From Thermanaerovibrio velox DSM 12556 (GTDB taxonomy: Bacteria; Synergistota; Synergistia; Synergistales; Synergistaceae), in assembly GCF_000237825.1 (NCBI RefSeq), contig NZ_CM001377.1, positions 372,001 to 436,000 on the forward strand: a stretch of DNA of 64,000 nt. The letters are read 5' to 3'. How positions within the stretch are numbered: the stretch's first letter is position 1; each line of letters begins with the position of its first letter. Below, piece after piece: positions 6,008 through 55,851 of the stretch. The notes under the pieces were generated by a model. The model saw nothing but the letters and a program-made list of their open reading frames with translations. It was not told the DNA's origin and did no database searches. The position numbers and the translations under genes are program-made.

Positions 6008-7560
6008 CTCGTACCTTCTCCTTTCGCCGCCATCTGCAGGGCCCTTTTCATGGCTTTGAACATGGCCCCAGCCTTGCTTAGGGTCTCTTGGTACTCCATC
6101 TCCGGATCCGAATCGTAAACTACGCCCGCCCCGGCCTGAATGTGTACCCTGTCATCTTCTTTAACGATGGTCCTTATGGTTATGCAGGTGTCCATGCTCC
6201 CCTGGAATCCCAGGTAGCCCACCGCTCCCGCGTATGGTCCCCTTGGGGTGCCTTCCAGCTCTCCTATGATCTCCATTGCCCTGATCTTGGGAGCCCCCGA
6301 TACGGTGCCCGCCGGGAAGGAGGAGATCAGAAGGTCCAGCGGAGTAGCCTCTGGTCTTTTTTGCCCTTCCACCTGAGATACGATGTGCATCACCTGGGAG
6401 TACTGCTCTATGCCCATGAGCTCGGTGACCCTTACGCTTCCGGGCTGGCATATCCTTCCAAGGTCGTTGCGGGCCAGGTCAACCAGCATTATGTGCTCCG
6501 CCCTTTCCTTTTCGTTCCCCAGCAGTTCCAGTGCGGCGCGCCTGTCCTCCTCTTCCGTATCTCCCCTTCTGCGGGTTCCGGCGAGCGGACGAGTGACGGC
6601 CTTGGATCCCGCGAGCTTCACATGGAGCTCCGGCGACGAGCCTATGAGGGTGATATTCGGCAGTTCCAGTAGGAAGTGATATGGGGAGGGGTTGCATGCC
6701 TTGAGGGCTCGGTAGATTAGCGTGGCGGGAAGGTTGGTTTTGGCGGAGAACCTTTGGGAGAGGACCACCTGACATATGTCCCCCGCTATTATGTGCTCCC
6801 GCCCCTTTCGGACCATGTCTAGGAAGTCCTCTTTCGTCATGAGTGGCTTTAGTGGATTGAGGAAAAAGGAGGTCCCTTGGGGCATTTTATGGTCTAGATA
6901 GGACTCCAGGAATCCCCTTAGGCCCTCCAGTTTTAAACAGGCCATCCTGTATAGCCCCTCTAGGCCTTCCTTTCCCATGTCCCTTGGGATGTGTTGGTTA
7001 ACCACCAGGAACAGCTTGTCACCTAGGTGGTCTATGGCTATCACGGAGGAGAACCCCATGAGTGACGCCATTGGGAGATGAGAGCAGGGCAGGGCTTTGC
7101 CTTCGTTTCTGTGGAACAGATCCTCCCAGGCGCTTATTATGTCGTATGCGAAGTATCCCGCCGCTCCTCCAAGGAACGGGGGAAGGTCATCTCTGACGGG
7201 AGGGTATGTGCCGGCCAGGTAGTTTCCCAGGGCTTTTTTAAGCCCATCCCTGCCGGGGAACTCCGCCAAGGTCCTGCCCTGGGGGCTGGTTTCAATGCAG
7301 ATGTTGTTGGAAAATGTGAAAATTCTGTCCGGCTCGGTTCCTATAAATGAATACCTGCCCCACCTGCCCTGTGGGTCCGGGGTCTCCATGAGGAAGCTTC
7401 CTTGGGGAGACCTTTTGAGACTTTCGTAGATCATGAGGGGGTCCCGTCCCTGGAGGCTTAGTTCCATTATCACCGGTACTCTTTCGAATTCAGAGCAGAG
7501 CCTTATGAAATCCTCAAGGGACGTAAGATTTTCTCTTCCCCTGATTTCGTGAACTCCCAT
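6004..7560 (-). CDS. trpE: anthranilate synthase component I
   Basis: Chorismate-utilising enzyme and first committed step to tryptophan. I place the start at 7560 (MGVHEIRG), 518 residues, because AAGGAGG lies 8 bases before that ATG. The longer open frame upstream runs through the attenuator. The C-terminal catalytic block is complete (LAGTRRRG, LVDLARNDLGRI, PAGTVSGAPKIRAMEII, IQAGAGVVYDSDPE). The N-terminal region that usually reads LLES, the Trp feedback site, here reads FLMET at 56-60; whether this changes inhibition cannot be told. Transcription is controlled by the attenuator at 7581-7788. Confidence 0.95.
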   Translation of the reverse strand: MGVHEIRGRENLTSLEDFIRLCSEFERVPVIMELSLQGRDPLMIYESLKRSPQGSFLMETPDPQGRWGRYSFIGTEPDRIFTFSNNICIETSPQGRTLAEFPGRDGLKKALGNYLAGTYPPVRDDLPPFLGGAAGYFAYDIISAWEDLFHRNEGKALPCSHLPMASLMGFSSVIAIDHLGDKLFLVVNQHIPRDMGKEGLEGLYRMACLKLEGLRGFLESYLDHKMPQGTSFFLNPLKPLMTKEDFLDMVRKGREHIIAGDICQVVLSQRFSAKTNLPATLIYRALKACNPSPYHFLLELPNITLIGSSPELHVKLAGSKAVTRPLAGTRRRGDTEEEDRRAALELLGNEKERAEHIMLVDLARNDLGRICQPGSVRVTELMGIEQYSQVMHIVSQVEGQKRPEATPLDLLISSFPAGTVSGAPKIRAMEIIGELEGTPRGPYAGAVGYLGFQGSMDTCITIRTIVKEDDRVHIQAGAGVVYDSDPEMEYQETLSKAGAMFKAMKRALQMAAKGEGTR

Positions 7561-7580
7561 GCCTTGATCCTCCTTGTGGG

Positions 7581-7622
7581 AAATTAAAAGAGCCGGGGGC
7601 TCTTGTGTTAAGGCCCCCGGCT
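7581..7622 (-). terminator. trp attenuator terminator hairpin
   Basis: AGCCGGGGGC (7613-7622) pairs perfectly with GCCCCCGGCT (7591-7600), followed on the minus strand by CTTTTAATTT. It sits between the leader peptide and trpE, 20 bases before the trpE start, as an attenuator should. Its left arm can instead pair with 7653-7661 (AAGGCCCC with GGGGCCTT), giving an antiterminator. Confidence 0.85.
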
Positions 7623-7653
7623 TAGTGGTTTTATCAGCTGAAGAACGACAGAG

Positions 7654-7696
7654 GGGCCTTGGAAGCGGTTCCGGCAAGGATCCACCTCCAAGGCCC
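7654..7696 (-). promoter_or_regulatory. trp leader anti-antiterminator hairpin
   Basis: GGGCCTTGGA (7687-7696) and TCCAAGGCCC (7654-7663) form a 10-bp perfect stem in the trp leader RNA. Its right arm overlaps the segment that can pair with the terminator's left arm. Its left arm can alternatively pair, with a bulge, with 7727-7735, next to the segment that pairs with the Trp codons. These mutually exclusive helices fit a ribosome-position switch. The pairing was worked out by eye, not folded. Confidence 0.6.
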
Positions 7697-7743
7697 ATCG
7701 CTGATTTGGACGTCGGCGATTTATATGGCCCTTGGCGGCGGAC

Positions 7744-7788
7744 TCAGGGAGCCCGCCACCACCAGTTTTGAAGTCTTAGGAAAAGCAT
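7744..7788 (-). CDS. trpL: trp operon leader peptide
   Basis: A 14-codon reading frame encodes MLFLRLQNWWWRAP, with three consecutive TGG codons at 7756-7764. AAGGAGG (7800-7806) lies 11 bases before the ATG, and a near-consensus promoter lies just upstream. The Trp-codon segment TGGTGGCGG (7753-7761) pairs with CCGCCGCCA (7733-7741). When tryptophanyl-tRNA is scarce a ribosome stalled on the Trp codons would block this pairing and let the antiterminator form; when Trp is plentiful the terminator at 7581-7622 would form. It is too short for ordinary gene finders, and the peptide itself probably has no other role. Confidence 0.88.
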   Translation of the reverse strand: MLFLRLQNWWWRAP

Positions 7789-7826
7789 CTTGGGTTAATC
7801 CTCCTTGGATCTGGATATTGGAAGGG

Positions 7827-7855
7827 ATTTTAGGGTTCAGTGTTTTCGTTGTCAA
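7827..7855 (-). promoter_or_regulatory. trp operon promoter
   Basis: TTGACA (7850-7855), a 17-base spacer and TAAAAT (7827-7832) on the minus strand match the sigma-70 consensus almost perfectly. The start site should fall near 7820, about 30 bases before the leader-peptide ATG. No obvious TrpR operator overlaps it. Confidence 0.8.
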
Positions 7856-8032
7856 GGGTGAAATATCAGGGTTCATGGGGTCTTATCGGGTTTTAGGGAG
7901 GAGGAGCGCTTTTATTTGTAACGTGCTCGGTGGTTTATTCGATAAATAAACAAACGAGATGGATCGATGTGGCAATTTTATTAAATATTTATTCCCTAGG
8001 AGTTGGCTTTGTTGACAAACTATCCAATCCCC

Positions 8033-8085
8033 TTGACGTGGCTCGGCAAATTAGGTGTAATATAAAACAGTTGGTTTTTGCAACT
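8033..8085 (+). promoter_or_regulatory. promoter and possible operator of the MarR gene
   Basis: TTGACG (8033-8038), 17 bases, then TGTAAT (8056-8061), or alternatively TAATAT at 8058. A short inverted repeat, AGTTG / CAACT at 8069-8085, lies at the expected start site and could be the MarR protein's own operator. A second TTGACA at 8012 has no good -10 partner. Confidence 0.45.
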
Positions 8086-8102
8086 ATTGGGGGTGCTTAG
8101 GT

Positions 8103-8591
8103 TTGAGGCCATCGGATTCGGGCATGAGGGAGAAAGCCTCGGCCCTTAGAGCGGCCCTTAGGGGCCTTGTGAGGGGCCTTGGCCTTCTGGACAGGGATGG
8201 GGCATGCTGTGGGGGGGTAACCTTGGCCCAGTGTCACGCCCTAGGAGAGATCGCAGACTCCGGCGGGCTGTCGTTGATGGAGCTGTCCCGAAGGCTTGGG
8301 CTCCATAAGAGCACCGTGAGCAGGACCGTTGATCCTCTGGTGGAAATGGGGTTGGTGGCCCAGGAGAGGGATCCATTGGACAGGAGGCGGTACGTTCTGT
8401 CCCTCACAGCTAAGGGGGTGGAGGTGGAAAGACGCATATCCGCCACCGTGGAGCTTCGGTGTCTTCGGATACTCGAGGCCCTTGACCCAGCATCCCATGA
8501 CAAGGTGCTTTCCGGGGTGGAGGAACTGCTCATGGGGCTTAGAAAGGCCCTTGAGAAGGAAGAAGGGGAGTGTGATTGCGTTGACCTTTAG
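8103..8591 (+). CDS. MarR family transcriptional regulator
   Basis: The 162-residue winged-helix protein shows MarR features: LSLMELSRRLGLHKSTVSRTVDPLVEMGLV (recognition helix, residues ~55-85) followed by the wing RDPLDRRRYVLSLTAKG. The start used is TTG at 8103, 8 bases after GGGGGTG; ATG at 8124 is the alternative. A cysteine pair early (ACCGG) and Cys-Asp-Cys near the C-terminus (ECDCVDL) could bind a soft metal or metalloid, which would fit the arsM-like gene that overlaps its end. That last point is inference. The gene most likely controls the small operon 8103-9881. Confidence 0.85.
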   Translation: MRPSDSGMREKASALRAALRGLVRGLGLLDRDGACCGGVTLAQCHALGEIADSGGLSLMELSRRLGLHKSTVSRTVDPLVEMGLVAQERDPLDRRRYVLSLTAKGVEVERRISATVELRCLRILEALDPASHDKVLSGVEELLMGLRKALEKEEGECDCVDL

Positions 8592-10257: not shown

Positions 10258-11277
10258 ATGGCCATACTCATAACCGGCGCGGCCGGTTACATAGGAAGCC
10301 ACTGCTGCGTTGAGACCCTGGAGGCGGGGTATCAAGTGGTGGGATTGGATAGCTTCGTGAACAGCAAGCCGGAGGTGCTTAACCGCATCAAGGCCATAAC
10401 GGGCAGGGATTTCCTGTTCTACCGGGGGGACATGAGGGACAAGGACCTCCTGGACAGGATTTTCACCGAGAATCAGGTGGACACGGTCATCCACTTCGCG
10501 GGTCTTAAGGCGGTGGGGGAGTCGGTGGAGCGACCCCTGGACTACTACGATAACAACGTCTGCGGCACCGTTACGCTGTGCGACGCCATGCTCCGCCACG
10601 GGGTAAGGCGCGTGGTCTTCAGCTCCTCCGCCACCGTTTACGGCACCCCCGAACGGTGCCCCATACCGGAGGATGCCCCCTTGGGCCCCGAGAGCCCTTA
10701 CGGCAGGACCAAGCTCATGATAGAGGAGATCCTAAGGGACCTCTGCTCCGCAAAGGAGGGGCTGCTGTCCGCGGTCCTGCTTCGCTACTTCAACCCCATA
10801 GGAGCCCATCCCAGCGGCATGATAGGGGAGGACCCCCAGGGGATACCTAACAACCTGATGCCCTACATAACCCAGGTGGCCTGCGGGAGGCTTGAGGAGT
10901 TAAAGGTCTTTGGTGGCGACTACGACACCCCCGACGGAACCCCCGTGAGGGACTACATACACGTGGTCGACCTGGCCAAGGGACACATCAGGGCCATCGA
11001 GAAGGCCGCCTCGTCAAAGGGTGTGATGGTCTACAACCTGGGCACCGGAAGGGGGTACAGCGTCCTCGAGGTGATAAAGGCCTTTGAGGCCGCCACGGGG
11101 ATAAGCATACCCTACAGGATAGTTGACCGCCGTCCCGGGGACGTGCCGGTTTGTTATGCGGACCCCTCAAAGGCCCTGAGGGAACTTCAATGGCGGCCGG
11201 AGATGGACATAAACCAAATGTGCAGGGACTCCTGGAACTGGCAGAGCAGGAACCCCATGGGATACGACGCCCGATGA
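10258..11277 (+). CDS. galE: UDP-glucose 4-epimerase
   Basis: Interconverts UDP-glucose and UDP-galactose for envelope polysaccharide or galactose use. This short-chain dehydrogenase fold has 339 residues, the usual length. The NAD motif GAAGYIGS is at 7-14, followed by the catalytic serine region FSSSATVYGTPE (~121-132) and Tyr148/Lys152 in SPYGRTK. LRYFNPIGAHPSG and NNLMPYITQVA, typical of GalE, follow. The gene stands alone; a GGTGAC/GTCACC palindrome lies ~85 bases upstream (10166-10178). The ribosome site is only GGGGG. Confidence 0.95.
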   Translation: MAILITGAAGYIGSHCCVETLEAGYQVVGLDSFVNSKPEVLNRIKAITGRDFLFYRGDMRDKDLLDRIFTENQVDTVIHFAGLKAVGESVERPLDYYDNNVCGTVTLCDAMLRHGVRRVVFSSSATVYGTPERCPIPEDAPLGPESPYGRTKLMIEEILRDLCSAKEGLLSAVLLRYFNPIGAHPSGMIGEDPQGIPNNLMPYITQVACGRLEELKVFGGDYDTPDGTPVRDYIHVVDLAKGHIRAIEKAASSKGVMVYNLGTGRGYSVLEVIKAFEAATGISIPYRIVDRRPGDVPVCYADPSKALRELQWRPEMDINQMCRDSWNWQSRNPMGYDAR

Positions 11278-11393
11278 CCTTTAAAGTTGCGGAACTGCAC
11301 CAATGGTCCCTTGTTGCCCCCCTCTTAGCCTCCTAGGAGGGGGAAGGATCCCCTGGGAGATGGGGAATTGTGGTCTTAGAGGAGGCATGTTCC

Positions 11394-13364
11394 ATGGCCT
11401 ATGGTGGTAACGGCCGAAAGGGCCGCGAAGGGGGCAAAGAACTTCGTTTTCTTCCCGCCACCCCCGAGGAGGTGGCGCGCCTTGGCTGGGACTCTCCGGA
11501 CTTTCTCCTCATAACCGGAGATGCCTATGTGGACCATCCTTCCTTTGGACACGCGGTGGTGGCCCGCTGGCTCGAGGCGCTGGGCTTTAAGGTGGCGGTG
11601 GCCCCCCAGCCTAGGTGGGACAGCCCGGAGGAGCTCTTGGCCTACGGAAGGCCCAAGCTTGCGGTGCTCATAAGCGGCGGCAACGTGGACTCCATGGTGG
11701 CCAACTACACCTCCGAGCGGCATCGGCGCTTAAGGGACCTCTACTCCCCCGACGGCGTTCCGGGGCTGCGTCCCGACAGGGCGGTCATCGTATACTCCAA
11801 TCTGGCAAGGCGGGCATTTAAGGGGGTACCGGTGATAATAGGAGGTATCGAGGCCAGCTTGAGGCGCCTTGCCCACTACGACTACTGGACCGACCATGTG
11901 AGGCGGTCGGTCCTCATGGACTCGAAGGCGGACATACTGGTCTACGGCATGGGGGAGCGTCCGCTTAAGGAGATCGCAGAGCGCCTGGCCGCCGGCGAGG
12001 CCGCGGGGGACATCAAGGATGTCAGGGGCACCTGCGTCAGGATAAGAGAGGACCAGATGCCCGAAGGATGCCTCGTGATCCCCTCATTCGAGGAGGTAAG
12101 GACCAGCGCCGCGGCCCACTGCGAGGCCTTCCGGCTGGCGTATCTTAACAACGATCCCTTTAGGGGCCGTCCACTGGTACAGCTCCAGGACCCGGGGGTG
12201 CTGCTCCAGAACCCCCCTCCCTTGCCCTTGTCCCAGGAGGAACTGGACCAGGTGTACTCCCTGCCCTTCACTTACCTCCCTCATCCTAGGTACCAGGGGT
12301 CCCACATCCCCGCCCTGGACGAGGTGCGGTTCAGCGTTACCGCCCACCGGGGGTGCATCGGTGACTGCTCCTTCTGCGCCATAAGCATGCATCAGGGCAA
12401 GGACATACAGCCCAGGAGCTTGGGGTCCATGGTGGAGGAGGTGGAACGGTTCCTGGAGTCGCCGGATTTTAAGGGCATGGTGAGCGACGTGGGAGGTCCC
12501 TCCGCCAACTTTCACCGGATGCCCTGTCCCAAGGCGGAGAGGCAAGGGGTCTGCCGGGACAGGTCCTGCCTTGGGGCCTCCCCCTGCCCAAACCTGCGTC
12601 CCAGGCATGAGGACTACTTCAAGGCCCTGAGGGCCATAAGGTCCATGAAGGGGATAAAGAAGGTGTTCGTGCGCTCCGGGGTGCGGTACGACTACCTTCT
12701 GATGGACCGGCCGGAGTACCTGCGGGAGCTGTGCGAACATCACGTGAGCGGCCAGATGCGGATAGCCCCGGAGCACCTCTGCGACTCCGTCACGACCCTC
12801 ATGAACAAGCCGGGCTTTGAGGTGCTCCTAAAGTTCATGGAGGCCTTCGGGGATGTGGCCGGCGGTAGGCTGTTTTTGGTGCACTACATAATGACCTCCC
12901 ACCCGGGCTGCACCTTGGAGGATGCGGTGGAGATGGCGGTGGAGCTCAAGAGGCTCGGCATAAGGCCCCGGGAGGTGCAGGACTTTACCCCCACCCCCAT
13001 GACCAGGTCCACCTGCATGTACGCCACCGGCATGGATCCAATGACGGGCCGAAGGGTCCACGTCCCCAAGGGCCGTGAGCGGCGTCTGCAGCGAGCCCTT
13101 GCCCAGTACTGGAAGGAGGAGAACCGCTCGCTGGTTGAGGAGGCCTTGAGGGAAGTGGGCAGGGAGGATCTGGTGGGCTTTGGCCCCCGGTGCCTCATCC
13201 CCCCGCAAGGCCCCATCAAGAAGTCCCTGGATCCTGCCATTAAAGCCCAGGGAAGGGGCAAAGGTGCGGCGGGGCCACGGGACCCTTCCGGATCCAAGGG
13301 GGCCCACGGAAGGCAGGGCAAGAAGCCAAGGAGAGGAAGACCCAGCCCCAAGGGAGGCCGTTGA
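11394..13364 (+). CDS. YgiQ family radical SAM protein
   Basis: Large radical SAM enzyme of unknown substrate. I start at ATG 11394, with GAGGAGG 8 bases upstream, giving 656 residues; an upstream in-frame GTG at 11370 is less likely. The order is an N-terminal domain (FLPATPEEVARLGW... DAYVDHPSFGHAVVARWLE), then the cluster motif CIGDCSFC with cysteines at 321, 325 and 328, then extra cysteines (CPKAERQGVCRDRSC...CPN), then the DUF3362-like end with PTPMTRSTCMYATGMDP. The last ~50 residues are rich in Gly, Lys, Arg and Pro, and are probably disordered and RNA- or nucleic-acid-attracted. It converges on the next gene with 25 bases between. Confidence 0.92.
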   Translation: MAYGGNGRKGREGGKELRFLPATPEEVARLGWDSPDFLLITGDAYVDHPSFGHAVVARWLEALGFKVAVAPQPRWDSPEELLAYGRPKLAVLISGGNVDSMVANYTSERHRRLRDLYSPDGVPGLRPDRAVIVYSNLARRAFKGVPVIIGGIEASLRRLAHYDYWTDHVRRSVLMDSKADILVYGMGERPLKEIAERLAAGEAAGDIKDVRGTCVRIREDQMPEGCLVIPSFEEVRTSAAAHCEAFRLAYLNNDPFRGRPLVQLQDPGVLLQNPPPLPLSQEELDQVYSLPFTYLPHPRYQGSHIPALDEVRFSVTAHRGCIGDCSFCAISMHQGKDIQPRSLGSMVEEVERFLESPDFKGMVSDVGGPSANFHRMPCPKAERQGVCRDRSCLGASPCPNLRPRHEDYFKALRAIRSMKGIKKVFVRSGVRYDYLLMDRPEYLRELCEHHVSGQMRIAPEHLCDSVTTLMNKPGFEVLLKFMEAFGDVAGGRLFLVHYIMTSHPGCTLEDAVEMAVELKRLGIRPREVQDFTPTPMTRSTCMYATGMDPMTGRRVHVPKGRERRLQRALAQYWKEENRSLVEEALREVGREDLVGFGPRCLIPPQGPIKKSLDPAIKAQGRGKGAAGPRDPSGSKGAHGRQGKKPRRGRPSPKGGR

Positions 13365-44127: not shown

Positions 44128-47100
44128 TCAGTTAACCCCCGGGTTGGCCTGATTCGTCCTCCCGGCTCTCATGGACAGGGCGCGCCTTAGGACCCTGAGC
44201 TTGTCCTTCATGTCGTCCAGCACCAGGTAGACCACGGGCACCACGAACAGGGTGAGGAGCGTGGACGTGAAGACGCCCCCCAACCACCGCCACCGCCATG
44301 GACTGCCTGAACCCCGCCCCCTCCGATAGCTTGAGCGCGGTGGGTATGGACCCCACAAGGGTGCTGAGGGCGGTCATGAGGATCGGCCTCAGCCTCAGCG
44401 GCCCGGAGGTCAGCACCGCCGCCACCTTGGGGAACCCCTTCTCCCTCTCCTGGTTTATGAAGTCCACCAGGATTATCCCGTTGTTAACCACGATGCCCAC
44501 CAGGAGGATTATCCCCATGAAGCTCATCATGTCCAGCTCGTTGCCCATCAGCGCCAGCATCCCGAAGGCCCCGGGAGTGAGGAGCGGCAGGGAGAACATG
44601 ACCGTGAAGGGGTGCAGGAACGACTCAAACTGTATCGCCATCACCACGTAGACCAGGGCTATGGCTATGCCAAGGGCCACGAAGAGCCTTTTGAAGTCCT
44701 CCCGCTGGGTCTTGGAGCGCCCGGTGGGCAGTATCTGAACCCCCTCGGAGCCCCTGGCGGAGCTCTTGAAAGCCTGCTCCATGAGGGTCATCACCTCTCC
44801 GGTGGAGACCCCTGGTGCGGGGTTCACGCTTATCTCCAGAGAGGTCCTGCGGGAGTAGCGGTTTATGACGTTCGGGGAAAGCACCTTCTGGACCTTCACG
44901 AGCCCCGGTATCCGGACGGTCCCGCCGTTGTAGCGCACCGCCACCCTCTCGAGGTCCTCAACGGACCGTCTAAGGGACGGGTCCGCCATTAGCCTTATGT
45001 CGTACCGGAAGCCCTCGTCCTTGAATACCCCGGCCTTCACCCCGCCGAAGTAGGCCTGGATCTCCTGGGCCAGGTCCTTCACGCTCAAGTCCAGCTGATC
45101 CGCCATGGTGCGGTTGACCGTAACCTCCAGCTGGGGTTTGTTCAGCCTTATGTCGGTGTTGAAGTCCGTGATCTTGCCGGTGGCCTCCAGCTTTTCCTTC
45201 ATCTCCTGGGCTATCTGATACAGCCTTTCGGGTGTTGAGCCCACAAGGACCATGGTGACCCCGCTCCTGCCCTCCTGGGAGAACGACAGCGTCCCCTCCT
45301 TGAATGAGGACAGGGAGGTCCTAACCTGCTCCATAACCTGCTCTATGGGGGGCCTGTCCTTTATGGGAACCAGCTCCACCGATATGCTGCCCTTGTTTGA
45401 TTCACCCCCCATGCCGGAACCCACGTCGCCATAGGTGTACTTCACGTAGGGGTTCTTCCTTATTATGGAGTCCAGACGGGTCATCACCTCCTGGGTCCTC
45501 TCCAGGGAGGTCCCCTCCGGCATGGTCAGGTCCATGCTGAAGGACCCCCGGTCGTCGGAGGGGAAGAAACCCTTGCCTATCTGGGATGCGATCACCAACC
45601 CGAAGATGAAGAGGGCCGCCGCCGCCAGGATCACGGTCTTCCGGTGCCCCACCGCCCAGAAGAGCCCCCGCCGGTAAGCCTCCTCCATTCGCTGGAAGCC
45701 CCGATTGAACGCCGAGGCAATCCTTCCCCCCTTGGGCTCACCCTTGAGGATGACGGAGCACAGCAGGGGGGTTAACGTGAGGGACACCAAAAGCGACATG
45801 GTTATGGTGAGCACCACGGTTATCCCGAAGTGATAGAAGAACCGCCCCACTATCCCACCCATGAAGGCTATGGGGGCGAAGACCGCCACGGTGGTGGTGG
45901 CTCCTCCGATGACCGAGAACGCCACCTCCTGGGTCCCCTTTATGGAGGCATCCAAGACCTTCATGCCCCCCTCTATGTGCCGGTGGATGTTCTCCAAAAC
46001 CACCGTGGTGGCGTCCACCACCATACCCACCGCCAGGGTTATCCCCATCATGGTGAGGTTGTTTATGCTGAGCCCTAGCCACTTCATGATGAGAAAACTG
46101 CTTATGAGACACACCGGTATGGATATCACCGCTATCCCGGTGGCCCGCAGGGTCTTGAGGAAGAGGAACATCACCAGGGAACAGAGCAGCACCGCCTGGA
46201 AGACGTCGGAGAAGACCCCTTTTATTGACCTCATTATGTAGTCCGAGGAGTCGGATATGAGGATGAGCTTCACGCCCCTTGGGGCTTCCCGCTGGAGCTC
46301 CTCCATGGCGGCCTTTACCCTGCGGCTCACCGCCACCTCGTTGGCTCCCCGCTGTTTCTTCACGGTGATGAATACCGTGTCCTTGCCGTTGTATATGGCG
46401 GCGCTCTCCTTCTCTTCCATGCCGTCCTCCACCCTGGCCACGTCGGACAGCCTCACCACCGCTCCCTGGGAGACCTTGATGGGCATGGATGCTAGGTCTT
46501 CTACCGAGGAGTACTCCCCTATGAGCCTTATCTGCAGGTCCTCCCGGGAGTTCTTTATGTTCCCCGCCGGCAGTTCCACGTGTTTGGCCTTGAAGGCGTC
46601 TATCACGTCCTTCACCATGAGGTTTCTCGCCTCCAGCTTGGCGGGATCCAGCCAAACCCGGATCTCACGGCTCCTCAGTCCCGGGGTTCCCACCTCGCCC
46701 ACGCCCTCTAGGGCCTGGATCCTGGGCTTTACCACCTTGTCGGCGAAACGGGACAGCTCCCTCGGGTTGGCCCCCGTCACCGCCATGGTGACTATTGCCC
46801 GGTCCCCTATGGAGAACTTCTGCACCACCGGGGTGTCCGCCTCGCTGGGGAGGGAGCCCATGGCCAGGTTAACCTTGTCCCTCACGTCCGCCGCCGCCTT
46901 GTCCACGTCCCTGCCAAGCTCGAACTCCACCACCGTTATGGAGCGTCCCTGGTAGCTGCTGGATGAGATGTTCTCTATCCCCGATATGCTGGACAGCTTG
47001 TCCTCTATGACGTCCGCCACGTCGTTATCCATGACCTTGGCGCTGGCGCCGGTCATGGAGGTGGACACGGTCACCACCGGGAAGTCCACGTCCGGTATCA

Positions 47101-47206
47101 GCTGCACCCCCATGGATGACAATGCCATGAGACCGAATATTATGAGCCCCAAGGATATCATGGTGACCGTCACAGGACGTCTTACGGAGAACTCCCAGAG
47201 CCTCAT
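44128..47206 (-). CDS. RND family multidrug efflux pump, frameshifted near the C-terminus
   Basis: AcrB/MexB-type inner-membrane pump of ~1025 residues. It starts MRLWEFSVRRPVTVTMISLGLIIFGLMALSSMGVQLIPDVDFPVV and has the helix-4 region MGITLAVGMVVDATTVVLENI, where an Asp in the GMVVDATTV segment is the family's proton-relay acid. The long frame ends at 44132, but a six-C run at 44276-44281 (plus-strand coordinates) with one base too many diverts it. Corrected, the frame reads VVGGVFTSTLLTLFVVPVVYLVLDDMKDKLR and stops at 44128. Everything else is intact, so a sequence error is likely. It lies directly after tetR, which it overlaps by four bases. Confidence 0.93.
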
Positions 47207-47874
47207 CCTCTCACCCCTTCCGGCTTTTCATCCTTTGCGCTAAGCCCTTGAAGCACCATGGTCTTGAGCAGCCCACATATCTGATCCGACGGTACCCCCG
47301 TCTCGGGCCCCTCGATGGCGAAGAGCCTTCCAAGCCCCATCATGGTGCAGTGGATTATGGTCTCCGCAGCGTCGGGATCCACGGGCCGCAAACTGCCATC
47401 CTCTATCCCCGCCGCTATGATGTCCCGAATGCAGCGCCTTATCACGCTCAACGGATGATCCTCCCCTTGATGACACATGTGGCTTTTCCTAGCCATGAGG
47501 GAGCTGTCCTCCTCAAAGGCCCTGCCGATGGCCGCGATCACGTGCCTGTTCCTGTACATCCCTGAGGCCGCCACCTCCAGGGCCTCCTCAAGACCCTTTG
47601 ACGCCGAAACCCTGCGGTTGACCACTTCTTCGCGTATCTCCGAAAGCCTCTCGGCGGTGATGCCCCCGTTGCGTTTCATCACGAAGAAGAGCACATCTCC
47701 CTTGCTCTCGAAGTATTTGTATATGGTGCCCTTGGCCACCCCCGCCCGTTGGGCGAGCTTCTCCATGGTTAAACCCTTCCATCCCTCCTCCCGCAGTATC
47801 CTTACCGCCGCTTCGTACAGGGCCTCCCGGGTAACCAGCTCCAGGAGGTCCCGCTTCTTTTCAGAAAGTCTCAA
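47203..47874 (-). CDS. TetR family repressor of the RND efflux operon
   Basis: The 223-residue protein has an N-terminal TetR helix-turn-helix (ILREEGWKGLTMEKLAQRAGVAKGTIYKYFESKGDVLFFVM, residues ~25-65) and a ligand domain of AefR/TetR_C type ending in MMGLGRLFAIEGPETG. It is the first gene of tetR-RND-tolC-MFP. Its promoter carries the palindrome GACCGATGGTC just past the start site, and the same palindrome lies upstream of the MATE gene and at 58231. The likely mechanism is drug-released repression of its own operon and of those sites; this is inferred. Confidence 0.9.
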   Translation of the reverse strand: MRLSEKKRDLLELVTREALYEAAVRILREEGWKGLTMEKLAQRAGVAKGTIYKYFESKGDVLFFVMKRNGGITAERLSEIREEVVNRRVSASKGLEEALEVAASGMYRNRHVIAAIGRAFEEDSSLMARKSHMCHQGEDHPLSVIRRCIRDIIAAGIEDGSLRPVDPDAAETIIHCTMMGLGRLFAIEGPETGVPSDQICGLLKTMVLQGLSAKDEKPEGVRG

Positions 47875-47977: not shown

Positions 47978-48095
47978 TCGTGGAAAATACGTATGCATGG
48001 TGGATAATATGAGCTGTCACAAAAGTGCTATGAGTTATAATGTAATCGTAAGCCTTGCGTAATCCAGTGGTCATGTAGACATGGGGGTGTTGTGA

Positions 48096-48893
48096 GTGGA
48101 TTTAAAGCTTCTTAAGATCGTTAACGATGAGGTGAGCTGCGGCGGTATAGGGGTTCTCTGCACCGTGGTGGACGAGGTGGGTTCCTCTCCCAGGAGCAGG
48201 GGATCGTCCATGTGGGTTCGCCTCGATGGTTCCATAGCCGGTACCGTGGGGGGAGGTTTGCTGGAGCACCAGGTGATCCAGAGGGCCTTGGAGATGATAG
48301 CCAAGGGGGAGTCCTGTGCTACCTTCACCAAGGATCTAAACGCCACGGACGGCATGGTGTGCGGTGGTAAGGTAGTGGTGTACCTGGAGGTCCTGGGCGG
48401 GGACGACCAGCTAGTGGTATTCGGGGCCGGGCACGTGGGCAAGGCCATAGGGGACTTGGCCCGCTACCTTGGGTTCTCCGTGGTGGTATGGGATGACCGG
48501 GAGGAGTTCGCCAACCAGGAACGGTTTCCCTATGCGGAGGTACACGCAGGGCCCCTGGAGGATTTCATGCGTGAATTCACGTCCAACCGCAGGACCTACA
48601 TAGTAGTATGCACCAGGGGTCATGCCTTGGACTCCGAGGTGGTTCGGCTCCTGGAGAATAAGGAGGCCGCCTACATAGGGCTTATAGGCTCCAAGAGCAA
48701 GCTTATAGCGTTGAAGGAGTCCCTGCTTTTCAACGGGGTGAGCGAGGCTCACTTTGAGCGCATATTCAAGCCCGTGGGGCTCCCAATAGGGGCGGAGACC
48801 CCGGAGGAGATAGCCCTTTCGGTGATGGCGGAGATAGTGGCGCTCAAGAGGAGGGCCAATCTGGATTCCCTCAGGGCCTCCTGGTGGGATTGA
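48096..48893 (+). CDS. XdhC/CoxI family molybdoenzyme maturation protein
   Basis: The 265-residue protein starts at GTG 48096. The N-terminal XdhC/CoxI domain shows VVDEVGSSPRSRGSSMWVRLDGSIAGTVGGGLLEHQVI; the C-terminal Rossmann part shows VVFGAGHVGKAIGDLARYLGFSVVVWDDREEFA and a GLIGSKSK loop. Such proteins bind molybdenum cofactor, help insert it, and promote its sulfuration in xanthine-dehydrogenase-type enzymes. No molybdenum hydroxylase is in the window, so its client is elsewhere. A TATAAT at 48036-48041 lies upstream. The next two genes follow closely and probably form an operon with it. Confidence 0.88.
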   Translation: MDLKLLKIVNDEVSCGGIGVLCTVVDEVGSSPRSRGSSMWVRLDGSIAGTVGGGLLEHQVIQRALEMIAKGESCATFTKDLNATDGMVCGGKVVVYLEVLGGDDQLVVFGAGHVGKAIGDLARYLGFSVVVWDDREEFANQERFPYAEVHAGPLEDFMREFTSNRRTYIVVCTRGHALDSEVVRLLENKEAAYIGLIGSKSKLIALKESLLFNGVSEAHFERIFKPVGLPIGAETPEEIALSVMAEIVALKRRANLDSLRASWWD

Positions 48894-48897
48894 GCGG

Positions 48898-50022
48898 ATG
48901 GGCATGAGGCTTGGGGGGCTTGTGCTGCTTGGGGGTTACTCAAGCCGCATGGGGCGTTTCAAGCCCGGTTTGGACATCGGAGGGGCAACGCCGGTAGAGC
49001 GCTGCGTGAGGCTGCTCTCATCCGCCGGGGTGGATCCGGTGGTGGCGGTGGTGGGTCACAACCGGCAGGAGGCGGAGGCCCTTGTGAGTTCCGCCGGCGC
49101 GGACGTGGTCTTCAACCCCCTTTACCCCTCCGGCATGTTCTCATCGGTAAGGCGGGGCGTGGAGGCCCTGATGGGAAGCGGGGTGACAGGGGCCTTCGTG
49201 CTCCCCGTGGATGTGCCCCTCGTGAGGCCCTGCACCGTGAGGGCCTTGGCGGACCGTTTCGCGGCCCTCGCAGGCTCCGGGGCCGTGGATGCCCTTATCC
49301 CCGTCTTCAGGGGCAGGACCGGACACCCGCCGGTGATAGGAAGCCACAGGTTTGAGGAGATCCTGGGGTTTGAGGGCCAGGGAGGGCTTAGGGCCCTCAT
49401 GTCGGGGTGGAAGTTGGAGACGTTGGACGTCTTCGACAGCCACGTGTTGCTCGACATGGACACCCCTGAGGACCTTGATGTGATCCTTTCGCGGCTTGGC
49501 CGGATGGAAGCCCCGGACCGGGAGGAGTGTCTTGAGATGCTAAGGCTATACAACACCCCCCCGGATGTGGTGTCCCACTCCCTGGCGGTGTGCGGCGCCG
49601 GGCTTAGCATCGGGAGGGCCCTCGTACCCAGGGGTGCCCAGCTGGACCTGGCGATGTTGGAGGCGGGGTGTCTGCTCCACGACATAGCCAAGGGCACCGG
49701 GAACCACGAGGCGGCGGGGGAGGAACTGCTGAAGGGGCTGGGCTTTGAACGTCTGGGCACCCTGGTGGGTTCTCACCGAGACCTCCCGGACTCGGTGAGA
49801 ACCCCCGAAGCGGAGGTGCTGTTCCTGGCGGACAAGTCCGTGAAGGGAACCGGTTTCATCACACTGGAGGATAGGCTTAATGTTATGCGTCTTAGGCTCA
49901 GGGACGATCCCGCTGCCCTTGCGGGGGCGGAGCGCCGGATAGGCCTTGCCATGGAGATACGACGCAAGGTCGAGGCCCTCGCGGGGGCAAAACTTGAGGA
50001 GATCTTGAGTCTTGATAGATAA
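48898..50022 (+). CDS. MocA-like NTP transferase fused to an HD domain
   Basis: Two domains in 374 residues. Residues ~1-195 form a nucleotidyltransferase of the MobA/MocA type with signature LGGYSSRMGRFKP and VLPVDVPLVRP (metal-binding Asp). Residues ~205-370 form an HD phosphohydrolase-like domain with HSLAVC, LLHDIAKGTGNHE and LADKSVKG. MocA attaches CMP to molybdopterin; the HD half may hydrolyse a nucleotide or phosphate. This architecture resembles the DVU_1551-type NTP transferases found near XdhC-like genes. It starts 4 bases after xdhC stops. The substrate is not known. Confidence 0.82.
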   Translation: MGMRLGGLVLLGGYSSRMGRFKPGLDIGGATPVERCVRLLSSAGVDPVVAVVGHNRQEAEALVSSAGADVVFNPLYPSGMFSSVRRGVEALMGSGVTGAFVLPVDVPLVRPCTVRALADRFAALAGSGAVDALIPVFRGRTGHPPVIGSHRFEEILGFEGQGGLRALMSGWKLETLDVFDSHVLLDMDTPEDLDVILSRLGRMEAPDREECLEMLRLYNTPPDVVSHSLAVCGAGLSIGRALVPRGAQLDLAMLEAGCLLHDIAKGTGNHEAAGEELLKGLGFERLGTLVGSHRDLPDSVRTPEAEVLFLADKSVKGTGFITLEDRLNVMRLRLRDDPAALAGAERRIGLAMEIRRKVEALAGAKLEEILSLDR

Positions 50023-50614
50023 GCTGTTTCTTATAAGGCATGGAAGGCCGGCGATGCCTGAGGGCGTCATGATTGGCTCAAGGTCCGATCCGGATCTCTC
50101 GCCGGTGGGGGAGGAGGAGGCCAGAGAGCTTAGGAGCCTTCTTGGGCGGCTTGGGGCCCTGGAGCTACCTTGCGTTTCAAGCCCCGCCCGCAGGTGCCTT
50201 AGGACCGCGGAGCTCGCGGGGCTAACCCCCCTTGTGGTGGAGGACCTTAGGGAGCTGGACCTTGGACTTTGGGACGGCCTTTCGAAGGATCAGGTGATGA
50301 TGGGCTGGCCTGAGCTGTTCGCCCAGAGGGGAAGGGACCTTGAGGGGGTGAGGCCCCCCATGGGGGAGAGCTTCGCGGACCTGGCGGAGAGGATGCGGGG
50401 TGCGTTCCGCAAGCTAGATGGCACCTTTGATGGCGGGTTGGTGGTTGTAGGCCATCGGGGAGCATCCTGGGCACTTACCTGCGCGCTCACCCGCCTGCCC
50501 TTGGGGCTTTACGGGGTCATCGAACACCGCCACTGCGGTGTCCACGTGCTGAGGCGGGAGGGAAAGGGCTTCCGCCTGGCGGCGGCAAACCTCTCCCCCT
50601 ACCTGGTGGCGTAA
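50012..50614 (+). CDS. histidine phosphatase family protein
   Basis: A 200-residue protein of the phosphoglycerate-mutase-like superfamily. The catalytic motif LIRHGRP (phospho-histidine) is near the N-terminus, the second arginine/glutamate pair is SSPARRCLRTAE and ELDLGLWDGLSKDQ, and the final histidine is in VVVGHRGASWAL. It resembles alpha-ribazole phosphatases and fructose-2,6-bisphosphatase-like enzymes. It starts at TTG 50012, overlapping the NTP-transferase/HD gene, so it is tightly linked to that maturation cluster. The substrate is not known. Confidence 0.85.
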   Translation: MIDKLFLIRHGRPAMPEGVMIGSRSDPDLSPVGEEEARELRSLLGRLGALELPCVSSPARRCLRTAELAGLTPLVVEDLRELDLGLWDGLSKDQVMMGWPELFAQRGRDLEGVRPPMGESFADLAERMRGAFRKLDGTFDGGLVVVGHRGASWALTCALTRLPLGLYGVIEHRHCGVHVLRREGKGFRLAAANLSPYLVA

Positions 50615-50639: not shown

Positions 50640-50670
50640 AAGGCGGCCTTCCGCGGGCCGCCTTGATTTT
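50640..50670 (+). terminator. terminator of the XdhC operon
   Basis: AAGGCGGCC (50640-50648) pairs with GGCCGCCTT (50656-50664), followed by GATTTTG. Confidence 0.75.
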
Positions 50671-54684: not shown

Positions 54685-54768
54685 TTGTTCCCTTTGGATG
54701 TAACATTCTAAGCATTATATGCTAAAAACCTGGTATGGTGGTGCCTTGTAAGGAAGGGGGCATTGGTT

Positions 54769-55851
54769 TTGAGGATAGAATCGGGACGGGTGGTGCGGCT
54801 TAAGCTTTATGACGTGGCGGAGGAGCTGGACCTTGGAGTGGTGGGTGGCATTTACCCCACGAGCCCTGGCCCTAAGGTGAGGTTTTTAAGGCGCCCCGTG
54901 GGTGGGGCCATAGAGCTGGCAAGGCCTCCGGTGGTTATGGACCTTGGGGAGTGGGTGGTGGATGGGTACCGCTGCGAGGTTGCCTTTAGGGCCTACGAGA
55001 GCGGGGTGGTGGGGTTCTCCCTGTCCTTTCCTCTTGAGGGTCTTACGGATGATGAGTTCGCGGAGGCCTCCATGGCCATAAGGTCTTCATCTTCGGCGTC
55101 CCTGGAGGTGGACCGCCTTGCCCGGGAGGCCTTTGAGGCCATGAAAGGTGCGGGCCTTTCGGTGTGGTGGGATCCGGACCTCACCGAGGAGTTCACGTTC
55201 TTCGTGGTACAAAAGGCCCAGGGTGGGCTTGGGATGAGGGAGTTCAAGGAGAGCTGGCGGTTTGCTTCCATGATGTACGGCGAGGGTCGGCCTCTTTCGA
55301 AGCACCTATTGGAGGCCCTTATGGGCAACGCCATGTCGTACCTGGAGGACGACCTTTTGGTAATGAACTACGACGGGGCCTTCATATCCGACCGGGAACC
55401 CGACGACATAATGATGATAGTGGAGTACGCGCTGCTGCAGCTTCTGGAGGCTAGGTACTACGACGGGGAGGTGAGCCGGCGCCTTGGGGCCCTATACGGC
55501 GCCATGGACATGAAGAGCGCCCACCTTAAGGCGCTCTTTTCCGGCGGTTACATAAGGGTTCGAAGGGAGGCCATGAAGCTGGTGTTGGACGCAAGGCTTG
55601 CCATGGACTCCATCCTCTCCTCTGTCAAGGTGACCGAGGACGCCTATTACTCTCAGGTGTACGCCAAGGCCCTCCGGGTCCTAAAGACCCAGGCCTGGGT
55701 GGACTCCATGGAGCGCAAGCTTGGGGAGCTGAAGGACGCCTGCGAGATGCTCGAAGGGGAGATCCAGGCCCTAAGGGCCAACTTGCTGGAGTGGATAATA
55801 ATAGCCCTCATAGCCCTGGAACTGATACCCCTTCTGCCAAAGCTCCTTTAG
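54769..55851 (+). CDS. RMND1/YagE (DUF155)-like membrane-anchored protein
   Basis: A 360-residue protein with a large soluble domain and one C-terminal membrane helix (LLEWIIIALIALELIPLLPKLL). The final RANLLEWIIIALIALE is very like the end of RMND1/YagE family proteins, and the acidic, aromatic central part (AFISDREPDDIMMIVEYALLQLLEARYYDGE) fits too. The family has an undefined role in translation or organelle maintenance in eukaryotes. I use TTG 54769, 8 bases after AAGGAAGGGGG; TTG 54763 is the alternative. It is divergent from the histidine kinase. Confidence 0.6.
   Translation: MRIESGRVVRLKLYDVAEELDLGVVGGIYPTSPGPKVRFLRRPVGGAIELARPPVVMDLGEWVVDGYRCEVAFRAYESGVVGFSLSFPLEGLTDDEFAEASMAIRSSSSASLEVDRLAREAFEAMKGAGLSVWWDPDLTEEFTFFVVQKAQGGLGMREFKESWRFASMMYGEGRPLSKHLLEALMGNAMSYLEDDLLVMNYDGAFISDREPDDIMMIVEYALLQLLEARYYDGEVSRRLGALYGAMDMKSAHLKALFSGGYIRVRREAMKLVLDARLAMDSILSSVKVTEDAYYSQVYAKALRVLKTQAWVDSMERKLGELKDACEMLEGEIQALRANLLEWIIIALIALELIPLLPKLL

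Follow-up and report, generated by a model that had tools for sequence, protein, structure and literature searches.

What does an XdhC-type cofactor chaperone do in the company of a nucleotidyltransferase, an HD hydrolase and a phosphatase, far from any enzyme that would need the cofactor? The question is raised by three forward-strand genes of Thermanaerovibrio velox DSM 12556 (Synergistaceae), found in a 64,000-nucleotide stretch of its chromosome (NZ_CM001377.1, positions 372,001 to 436,000), which we refer to as the window. The first gene (48096..48893; 265 residues, GTG start) encodes the XdhC-type chaperone, with the Pfam domains XdhC_CoxI (68.8 bits) and XdhC_C (139.7 bits). The second (48898..50022; 374 residues, ATG start) encodes a nucleotidyltransferase of the DVU_1551 family fused to an HD domain: an NTP_transf_3 domain of MocA/MobA fold (residues 7–169, 48916..49404; 109.9 bits) is followed by the HD domain, for which the Pfam stretch covers residues 225–313 (49570..49836; 37.2 bits). 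The third (50012..50614; 200 residues, TTG start) encodes a CobC-like histidine phosphatase of branch 1 (His_Phos_1, 130.8 bits). All of these domains score above the Pfam gathering scores. By the open reading frame (ORF) calls, four bases separate the XdhC gene from the fusion gene, which overlaps the phosphatase gene by 11 bases, and a terminator-like hairpin lies downstream (50640..50664), in agreement with the tightly packed three-gene unit recognized in a first-pass annotation of this DNA.

We tentatively propose that this unit finishes the molybdenum cofactor for molybdenum hydroxylases, with the HD domain and the phosphatase acting as clean-up. That the unit matures molybdenum hydroxylases is probable, and the genomic context supports it well; that the HD domain and the phosphatase edit or clean up the dinucleotide product is suggested by analogy and is slightly more tentative than the proposal as a whole. 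The first-pass annotation suggested that the unit might make, edit or dismantle a nucleotide-bearing cofactor. The family membership of the fusion and its molybdenum context support such a role in part, and the editing is a step that we infer.

A DVU_1551-family fusion in a molybdenum context

The fusion protein belongs to NCBIfam family NF045665, the 'DVU_1551 family NTP transferase' (333.5 bits, cut-off 315), which it matches over positions 3–358 of a 359-position profile, as expected from the relation to DVU_1551-type systems that had been suggested. Because this match includes the HD domain, the fusion is ordinary within NF045665, where NTP_transf_3 followed by HD is the usual architecture; the earlier description of the fusion as non-standard thus fails for its own family but holds in comparison with MocA, from which the HD domain is absent. 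The family is known by its locus-tag name, and many of its members in Desulfobacterota and Bacillota sit in a cassette with TrsS, DVU_1553, DVU_1555, DVU_1556, DVU_1557 and a dicluster protein, whereas the window unit consists of the transferase–HD protein with XdhC and the phosphatase only. TrsS, a radical S-adenosylmethionine (SAM) protein (NF045646), was the only cassette member looked for in the window genome, where its best match (2.7e-11) was below the 490-bit cut-off.

In its transferase fold and its XdhC partner the unit resembles MocA (TIGR03310) working with XdhC, but the fusion scores 91.9 bits against the MocA model, under the cut-off of 186.45, and the HD domain and the phosphatase are additions. 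According to PMC2997495, XdhC binds and delivers Mo-molybdopterin, MocA adds cytidine monophosphate (CMP) to it, and xdhC genes occur in operons with mocA. The window XdhC, which is assigned by Pfam, falls under the cut-offs of both the XdhC family aldehyde oxidoreductase (AOR) maturation factor NF045664 (252.2 bits, cut-off 350) and TIGR02964 (146.4 bits, cut-off 161.6). We also considered reading the nucleotide used by the transferase from the loop that takes the form LAAG or LAGG, and dropped this approach: the loop reads LLGG in the window protein, and the nucleotide is not readable from the sequence because position 12 is mixed among the 52 aligned sequences (A in 34, G in 16).

As had been noticed, no molybdoenzyme lies near the unit. 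The genome is a single contig of 1,880,838 bases, in which MoCoBD_1 matches five times, at 1.41, 1.43 and 1.72 megabases (Mb), about 1 Mb from the unit at 0.42 Mb. These correspond to four large-subunit genes of molybdenum hydroxylases, because two of the five matches are halves of one split gene; the regions also hold SsnA, permeases and purine-type hydrolases. The split gene, a combined 2Fe-2S and molybdenum-hydroxylase gene, runs over two overlapping reverse-strand frames (10710–12011 and 11956–13215 of locus L015, at about 1.4137–1.4162 Mb of the genome). Its likely counterpart in genomes of the same genus is a single open frame of 853–855 residues, and the split may reflect a pseudogene or a sequencing error. 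MoaA is present (334.3 bits), and XdhC_C matches just once, in the window copy. The other molybdenum-type transferase of the genome, at 1.78 Mb beside HydF and HydG, looks like MobA by sequence: two MobA models score it at 108.7 and 84.0 bits, and it matches no MocA model at an E value of 1e-15 or better. Since the sole XdhC of the genome is in the unit and the other transferase is MobA-like, the unit is likely to be the finishing route for all molybdenum hydroxylases of the cell.

The same association is seen across the phylum. Among 185 Synergistota genomes, 56 carry a full fusion (at least 260 bits), including 52 over the NF045665 cut-off, and 113 carry MoCoBD_1, which is found in 54 of the 56 fusion-bearing genomes versus 59 of the 129 others (p = 1.9e-12 in a Fisher test that ignores kinship). 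XdhC, over its cut-off in 102 genomes, follows the same pattern (50 of 56 versus 52 of 129), the fusion occurring without it in G030, G031, G149, G155, G157 and G158. Together with the MocA-like fold and the single XdhC gene of the window genome, these counts bear out the molybdenum role suggested for the unit. When we looked for the fusion in genomes lacking molybdenum cofactor synthesis, as judged by MoaA at 235 bits or more, the outcome was mixed: 51 of the 56 have MoaA, and four of the other five (G149, G018, G023 and G157) are 63–82% complete, but the fifth, G108, has a completeness rating of 100% in 50 contigs.

Linkage, fusion and the candidate editing site

Around the fusion in 61 Synergistota loci, where clusters of neighbours were named from one representative each, we found, among others, MoCF-domain proteins (30 loci), ModA and ModB (25 each), XdhC (19), the large subunit of molybdenum hydroxylases (17), the phosphatase (16) and SsnA-like proteins (13). 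In other collections, the best 80 of at least 296 confirmed named loci (from at least 591 pattern matches) include XdhC in 46 and the phosphatase in 42, with TrsS, DVU_1553, DVU_1556, DVU_1555 and the dicluster protein each in 31–35; the trio stands without this cassette in L143 and L161. Searches with hidden Markov models of the domains placed the phosphatase within 1.5 kilobases (kb) of the fusion in 19, and XdhC in 20, of 58 Synergistota loci, and in 36 and 40, respectively, of 65 loci elsewhere, where each rises to 49 within 8 kb. The concern that the genes might be scattered in relatives was therefore half justified, as both partners lie within 1.5 kb in 15 of the Synergistota loci and 25 of the others, but not in the rest. 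The trio and its flanks keep an identical order in both further genomes of the genus that we examined (G171 and G172; loci L094 and L096), and in a fourth genome of the family, G122, the fusion is flanked by XdhC on one side and by the phosphatase on the other (L056). More widely the order varies: XdhC comes first in the window unit, last in f7 and in G009, and is divergent in f5. In f7 and f8 the fusion is directly preceded by a gene (L076, 10656–11465, reverse strand) for a 269-residue protein matching DUF364, for putative heavy-metal chelation.

The phosphatase goes with the HD domain in particular, lying within 1.5 kb of 57 of the 127 HD-bearing transferase domains but only 4 of the 29 HD-less ones, and three of these four are single-ORF fusions. 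This count covers 156 of 161 loci, leaving out L106 and L107, which have an HD domain and no transferase, and L108, L172 and L175, which are at contig ends; it includes four Synergistota loci twice (L113, L138, L155 and L181) as well as the near-twins L072 and L073, and its Fisher test ignores kinship. By Pfam, single ORFs join the parts in several ways: transferase, HD and phosphatase in L131 and L149 (Syntrophobacteraceae); phosphatase, transferase and HD in L139 (Lachnospiraceae); AMP-binding domain, transferase, HD and phosphatase in a 1084-residue protein of L154 (5468–8719, forward strand); and transferase and phosphatase in L179, L184 and L185, loci in which we looked for an HD domain and found none. 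The fusion in L184 (about 6971–8203, forward strand) lies within a DVU_155x-type gene set. Given these fusions and the linkage, we conclude that the three activities form one functional set, from which the HD domain or the phosphatase can be missing.

The associated phosphatases also appear to be a lineage of their own. In a tree of 59 rows, which has three outsiders only and for which the program warns of long branches, 56 of the 57 associated phosphatases split from the two other phosphatases of the window genome with support of 100/98. Their clade spans Synergistota, Thermodesulfobacteriota, Bacillota, Pseudomonadota, Acidobacteriota, Myxococcota and Spirochaetota, and in Pseudomonadota and Acidobacteriota the phosphatase is 3–4 kb from the transferase rather than adjacent; the one phosphatase outside it, in L116, is distant and on the opposite strand. 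The catalytic residues R61, E81 and H148 are kept in all 57 rows, and R9 and H10 in 55, the other two being gapped.

For the HD domain we turned to predicted structures. An AlphaFold2 model of the fusion (mean predicted local distance difference test score (pLDDT) 96.1) has Rv0371c (2wee) as its best Foldseek match (E = 1.9e-9, transferase part), and the transferase part matches Rv0371c, Q97W15 and MobA. The matches that VIA-align listed for the whole model, which are not exhaustive, were to the transferase only; the HD part was therefore predicted and searched alone (pLDDT 97.0). Foldseek then gave no match at an E value of 0.001 or better, the top ones being 2pq7 (0.0081) and YqeK 8wmy (0.017), and VIA-align matched exopolyphosphatase PPX (Z 14.6), and the YqeK-type structures 2o08 (Z 12.6 over 142 residues), 3ccg (Z 11.7) and 8wmy (Z 11.4). 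In a profile search, the best chains were an oxetanocin-like protein (8e-6) and an Ap4A (diadenosine tetraphosphate) hydrolase (0.0025). The predicted metal ligands H227, H261, D262, H270, H293 and D312, together with K313, are invariant in alignments of 52 and of 60 sequences, and the six ligands make up the YqeK motif H..HD..H..H..D, which the review PMC8177086 describes as diagnostic of a dinuclear site and as carried by the phosphatase YqeK.

The NadD–YqeK fusion of mycoplasmas resembles the window protein in having a cofactor nucleotidyltransferase and an HD diphosphatase on one chain, and in the six-ligand HD motif, though NadD is from a different transferase family. In the accessible text of PMC9426524, YqeK joined to the adenylyltransferase NadD acts as a proofreader in the synthesis of nicotinamide adenine dinucleotide (NAD) by removing wrong dinucleotides, and that text mentions no phosphatase partner. 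Given this precedent, the HD site may be where pterin dinucleotides are edited, and the reset may be completed by the phosphatase. In the scheme we have in mind, the transferase domain would add a nucleotide, most likely CMP from cytidine triphosphate (CTP) judging by family and fold, to Mo-molybdopterin. XdhC would take the product, protect it and deliver it to apoenzymes, as is known for the XdhC family member of R. capsulatus. The HD domain, as a YqeK-type metal-dependent diphosphatase on the same chain, would cleave wrong or damaged dinucleotides, and the phosphatase would strip the phosphate left on the released product, stopping the reset from running back. The enzymes served would be the xanthine-oxidase-type molybdenum hydroxylases encoded elsewhere on the chromosome. 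In this full form, with a molybdenum cofactor nucleotidyltransferase that has its own HD site for cleaving pterin dinucleotides that are wrongly made or damaged, and with a phosphatase clade dedicated to completing the reset, the scheme is doubtful, though it is a better candidate than any of the alternatives considered below.

Regulatory signals and flanking genes complete the description of the unit. A promoter-like site (CTGTCA-16-TATAAT, 48014..48041, forward strand) agrees with the consensus at 10 of 12 positions, and the downstream hairpin has 10 pairs, 7 of them G-C, followed by a T-rich tail; both are consensus matches only. The whole stretch has 4 promoter-like sites versus 0.6 in shuffled sequences. 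Terminator-like sites, of which this hairpin is the longest, are at chance level (3 versus 2.6 in shuffles). Between 47000 and 51500, Rfam gave no match at the gathering score, and hence no riboswitch match, and a PADLOC search of the three proteins for defence genes gave none either. Divergent to the trio (44132–47874, reverse strand) are a TetR-type regulator and a 1024-residue ORF that, on a reading of its sequence alone, resembles a resistance–nodulation–division (RND) efflux pump; farther on, a 362-residue ORF (54763–55851, forward strand) has no Pfam or NCBIfam match at an E value of 0.001.

Weighing the editing proposal against its alternatives

Several points weigh against the function that we favour, beginning with the fact that the activity of all three parts is inferred from family, fold and context. 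The likeness of the HD domain to YqeK is middling, since the Foldseek E value is 0.017 and the Z scores of 11–13 fall in the range where the tool warns about helical folds, and PPX ranks above the YqeK structures. The third histidine follows the HD pair by 8 residues in the fusion and by 32 in YqeK as described in PMC8177086, so that the loop before it is much shorter than in NadD–YqeK. The phosphatases of all three genus genomes have a tryptophan five residues after the catalytic H148, where 54 of the 57 relatives have arginine. Linkage is incomplete as well: the phosphatase is beyond 1.5 kb in 70 of the 127 HD-bearing loci, the Synergistota fusion of f6 adjoins molybdenum hydroxylases mostly without XdhC or the phosphatase close by, and a tree test of joint change in phosphatase and XdhC adjacency, with 6 supported pairs and a median p of 1, had no power. 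Two near-complete genomes of one genus, G030 and G031 (loci L063 and L101), keep the fusion and MoaA without MoCoBD_1 or XdhC. Finally, DVU_1551-type HD domains with all seven motif residues stand free on the reverse strand of L107 (9095–9553; G113) and L106 (4709–5170; G091). In G113 there is neither a MoCoBD_1 match nor an XdhC over the cut-off, and MoaA matches only weakly; its free-standing copy therefore argues against an exclusively molybdenum-related role.

The alternative that survives best, although we consider it unlikely, is plain cytidylylation without editing: the fusion would make molybdopterin cytosine dinucleotide in the manner of MocA, and its HD domain and the phosphatase would pull the reaction towards product by disposing of pyrophosphate or nucleotide by-products. 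It fits the co-occurrence, fusion and linkage data equally well; the top rank of PPX among the structures matched by the HD model speaks for it, and the forms with the HD domain alone, the phosphatase alone or both would suit two partly interchangeable hydrolases. However, MocA without an HD domain or a phosphatase is common in Synergistota, which indicates that the reaction needs no such pull, and we know of no HD protein that acts as an inorganic pyrophosphatase.

It is less probable again that the transferase, the HD site and the phosphatase act one after another to yield a novel cofactor, distinct both from molybdopterin and from its cytosine dinucleotide, which might carry a different nucleotide, for instance, or lack the terminal phosphate. 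Three phosphate-handling domains on one chain in L131, L149 and L139 would suit such a product, as would the wider cassette, in which TrsS, a methyltransferase and an AMP (adenosine monophosphate)-dependent ligase look like chemistry beyond that of MocA, and the unreadable loop of the transferase leaves room for another nucleotide. The window genome does without TrsS, however, so the cassette chemistry is not needed here, and the cofactor in Desulfovibrio gigas aldehyde oxidoreductase is ordinary molybdopterin cytosine dinucleotide. The TrsS matches of G106, G107, G109 and G112 (588–597 bits) each contain a single in-frame TGA, in keeping with the seleno form in the family name.

Marginally less probable still is general nucleotide hygiene, in which Ap4A or other cellular dinucleotides would be the substrates of the HD domain and the phosphatase, and the association of these two with cofactor genes would be only historical. 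The free-standing HD copies of G091 and G113, the fusion kept without a molybdenum hydroxylase in G030 and G031, and the Ap4A hydrolase among the nearest HD enzymes by profile all lean this way. Against them stand the strong co-occurrence with molybdenum hydroxylases and the repeated fusion to a MocA-like domain. In G030 and G031 the fusion adjoins an SsnA-like gene.

A role in maturing selenium-dependent molybdenum hydroxylases, the unit replacing YqeB and YqeC in placing selenium on the cofactor, is very improbable. The known system (YqeB, YqeC and YgfJ), as described in PMC2276186, also matures molybdenum hydroxylases and includes the MocA-like YgfJ. The window genome has SsnA (553.2 bits, cut-off 455.5) in a region with xanthine-dehydrogenase-type genes, and SsnA-like genes below their family cut-offs adjoin the fusion in f6. 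Yet YqeB (TIGR03309), which is over its cut-off in 39 of the 185 genomes (TrsS in 27), has no match in the window genome, G000, and exceeds the cut-off in 9 of the 56 fusion-bearing genomes; G098 and G023 also have fragments of it. Among 106 genomes with MoCoBD_1, after 7 with partial fusions were dropped, YqeB is found in 9 of 54 with the fusion and 29 of 52 without it (p = 3.9e-5; this Fisher test, too, ignores kinship). In G009, G021 and G035 it adjoins a separate, HD-less MocA-like transferase. Because YqeB is rarer with the fusion and sits beside another transferase in these three genomes, a selenium link is not supported as judged by this marker, and the count of selenium genes that the first-pass annotation had proposed, made here with YqeB, did not bear the connection out.

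Least credible is cobalamin lower-ligand assembly by a CobY-like guanylyltransferase and a CobC phosphatase: although the window phosphatase is like CobC in its catalytic residues and has alpha-ribazole phosphatase CobC (TIGR03162) as its top NCBIfam model, which its relative in L145 passes (170.2 bits, cut-off 162.9), it scores 90.7 bits itself, less than two other phosphatases of the genome (149.6 and 129.1), and its neighbours are XdhC and molybdenum genes, so we rejected its identification as CobC.

What the unit may mean for cofactor maturation

The protein family and its cassette are already catalogued in NCBIfam under locus-tag names, and our literature searches on DVU_1551, on the domain combination and on TrsS with XdhC found no paper on function. 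As far as these searches go, what is new is the phosphatase as a stable third partner, the fused forms, the separation from the route that uses YqeB and the proposal of editing. This separation suggests that Synergistota with molybdenum hydroxylases tend to one of two finishing routes. In T. velox the system appears in a reduced version, with one XdhC, one transferase–HD protein and one phosphatase for several molybdenum hydroxylases and with the larger cassette absent, and the question can therefore be approached with three proteins. Should the HD domain indeed edit the cofactor, the molybdenum cofactor would join NAD as a target of metabolite proofreading of the kind described for NadD–YqeK, and its proofreading machine would be conserved in several phyla, where it is assembled from between one and four genes and in some cases forms a single polypeptide.

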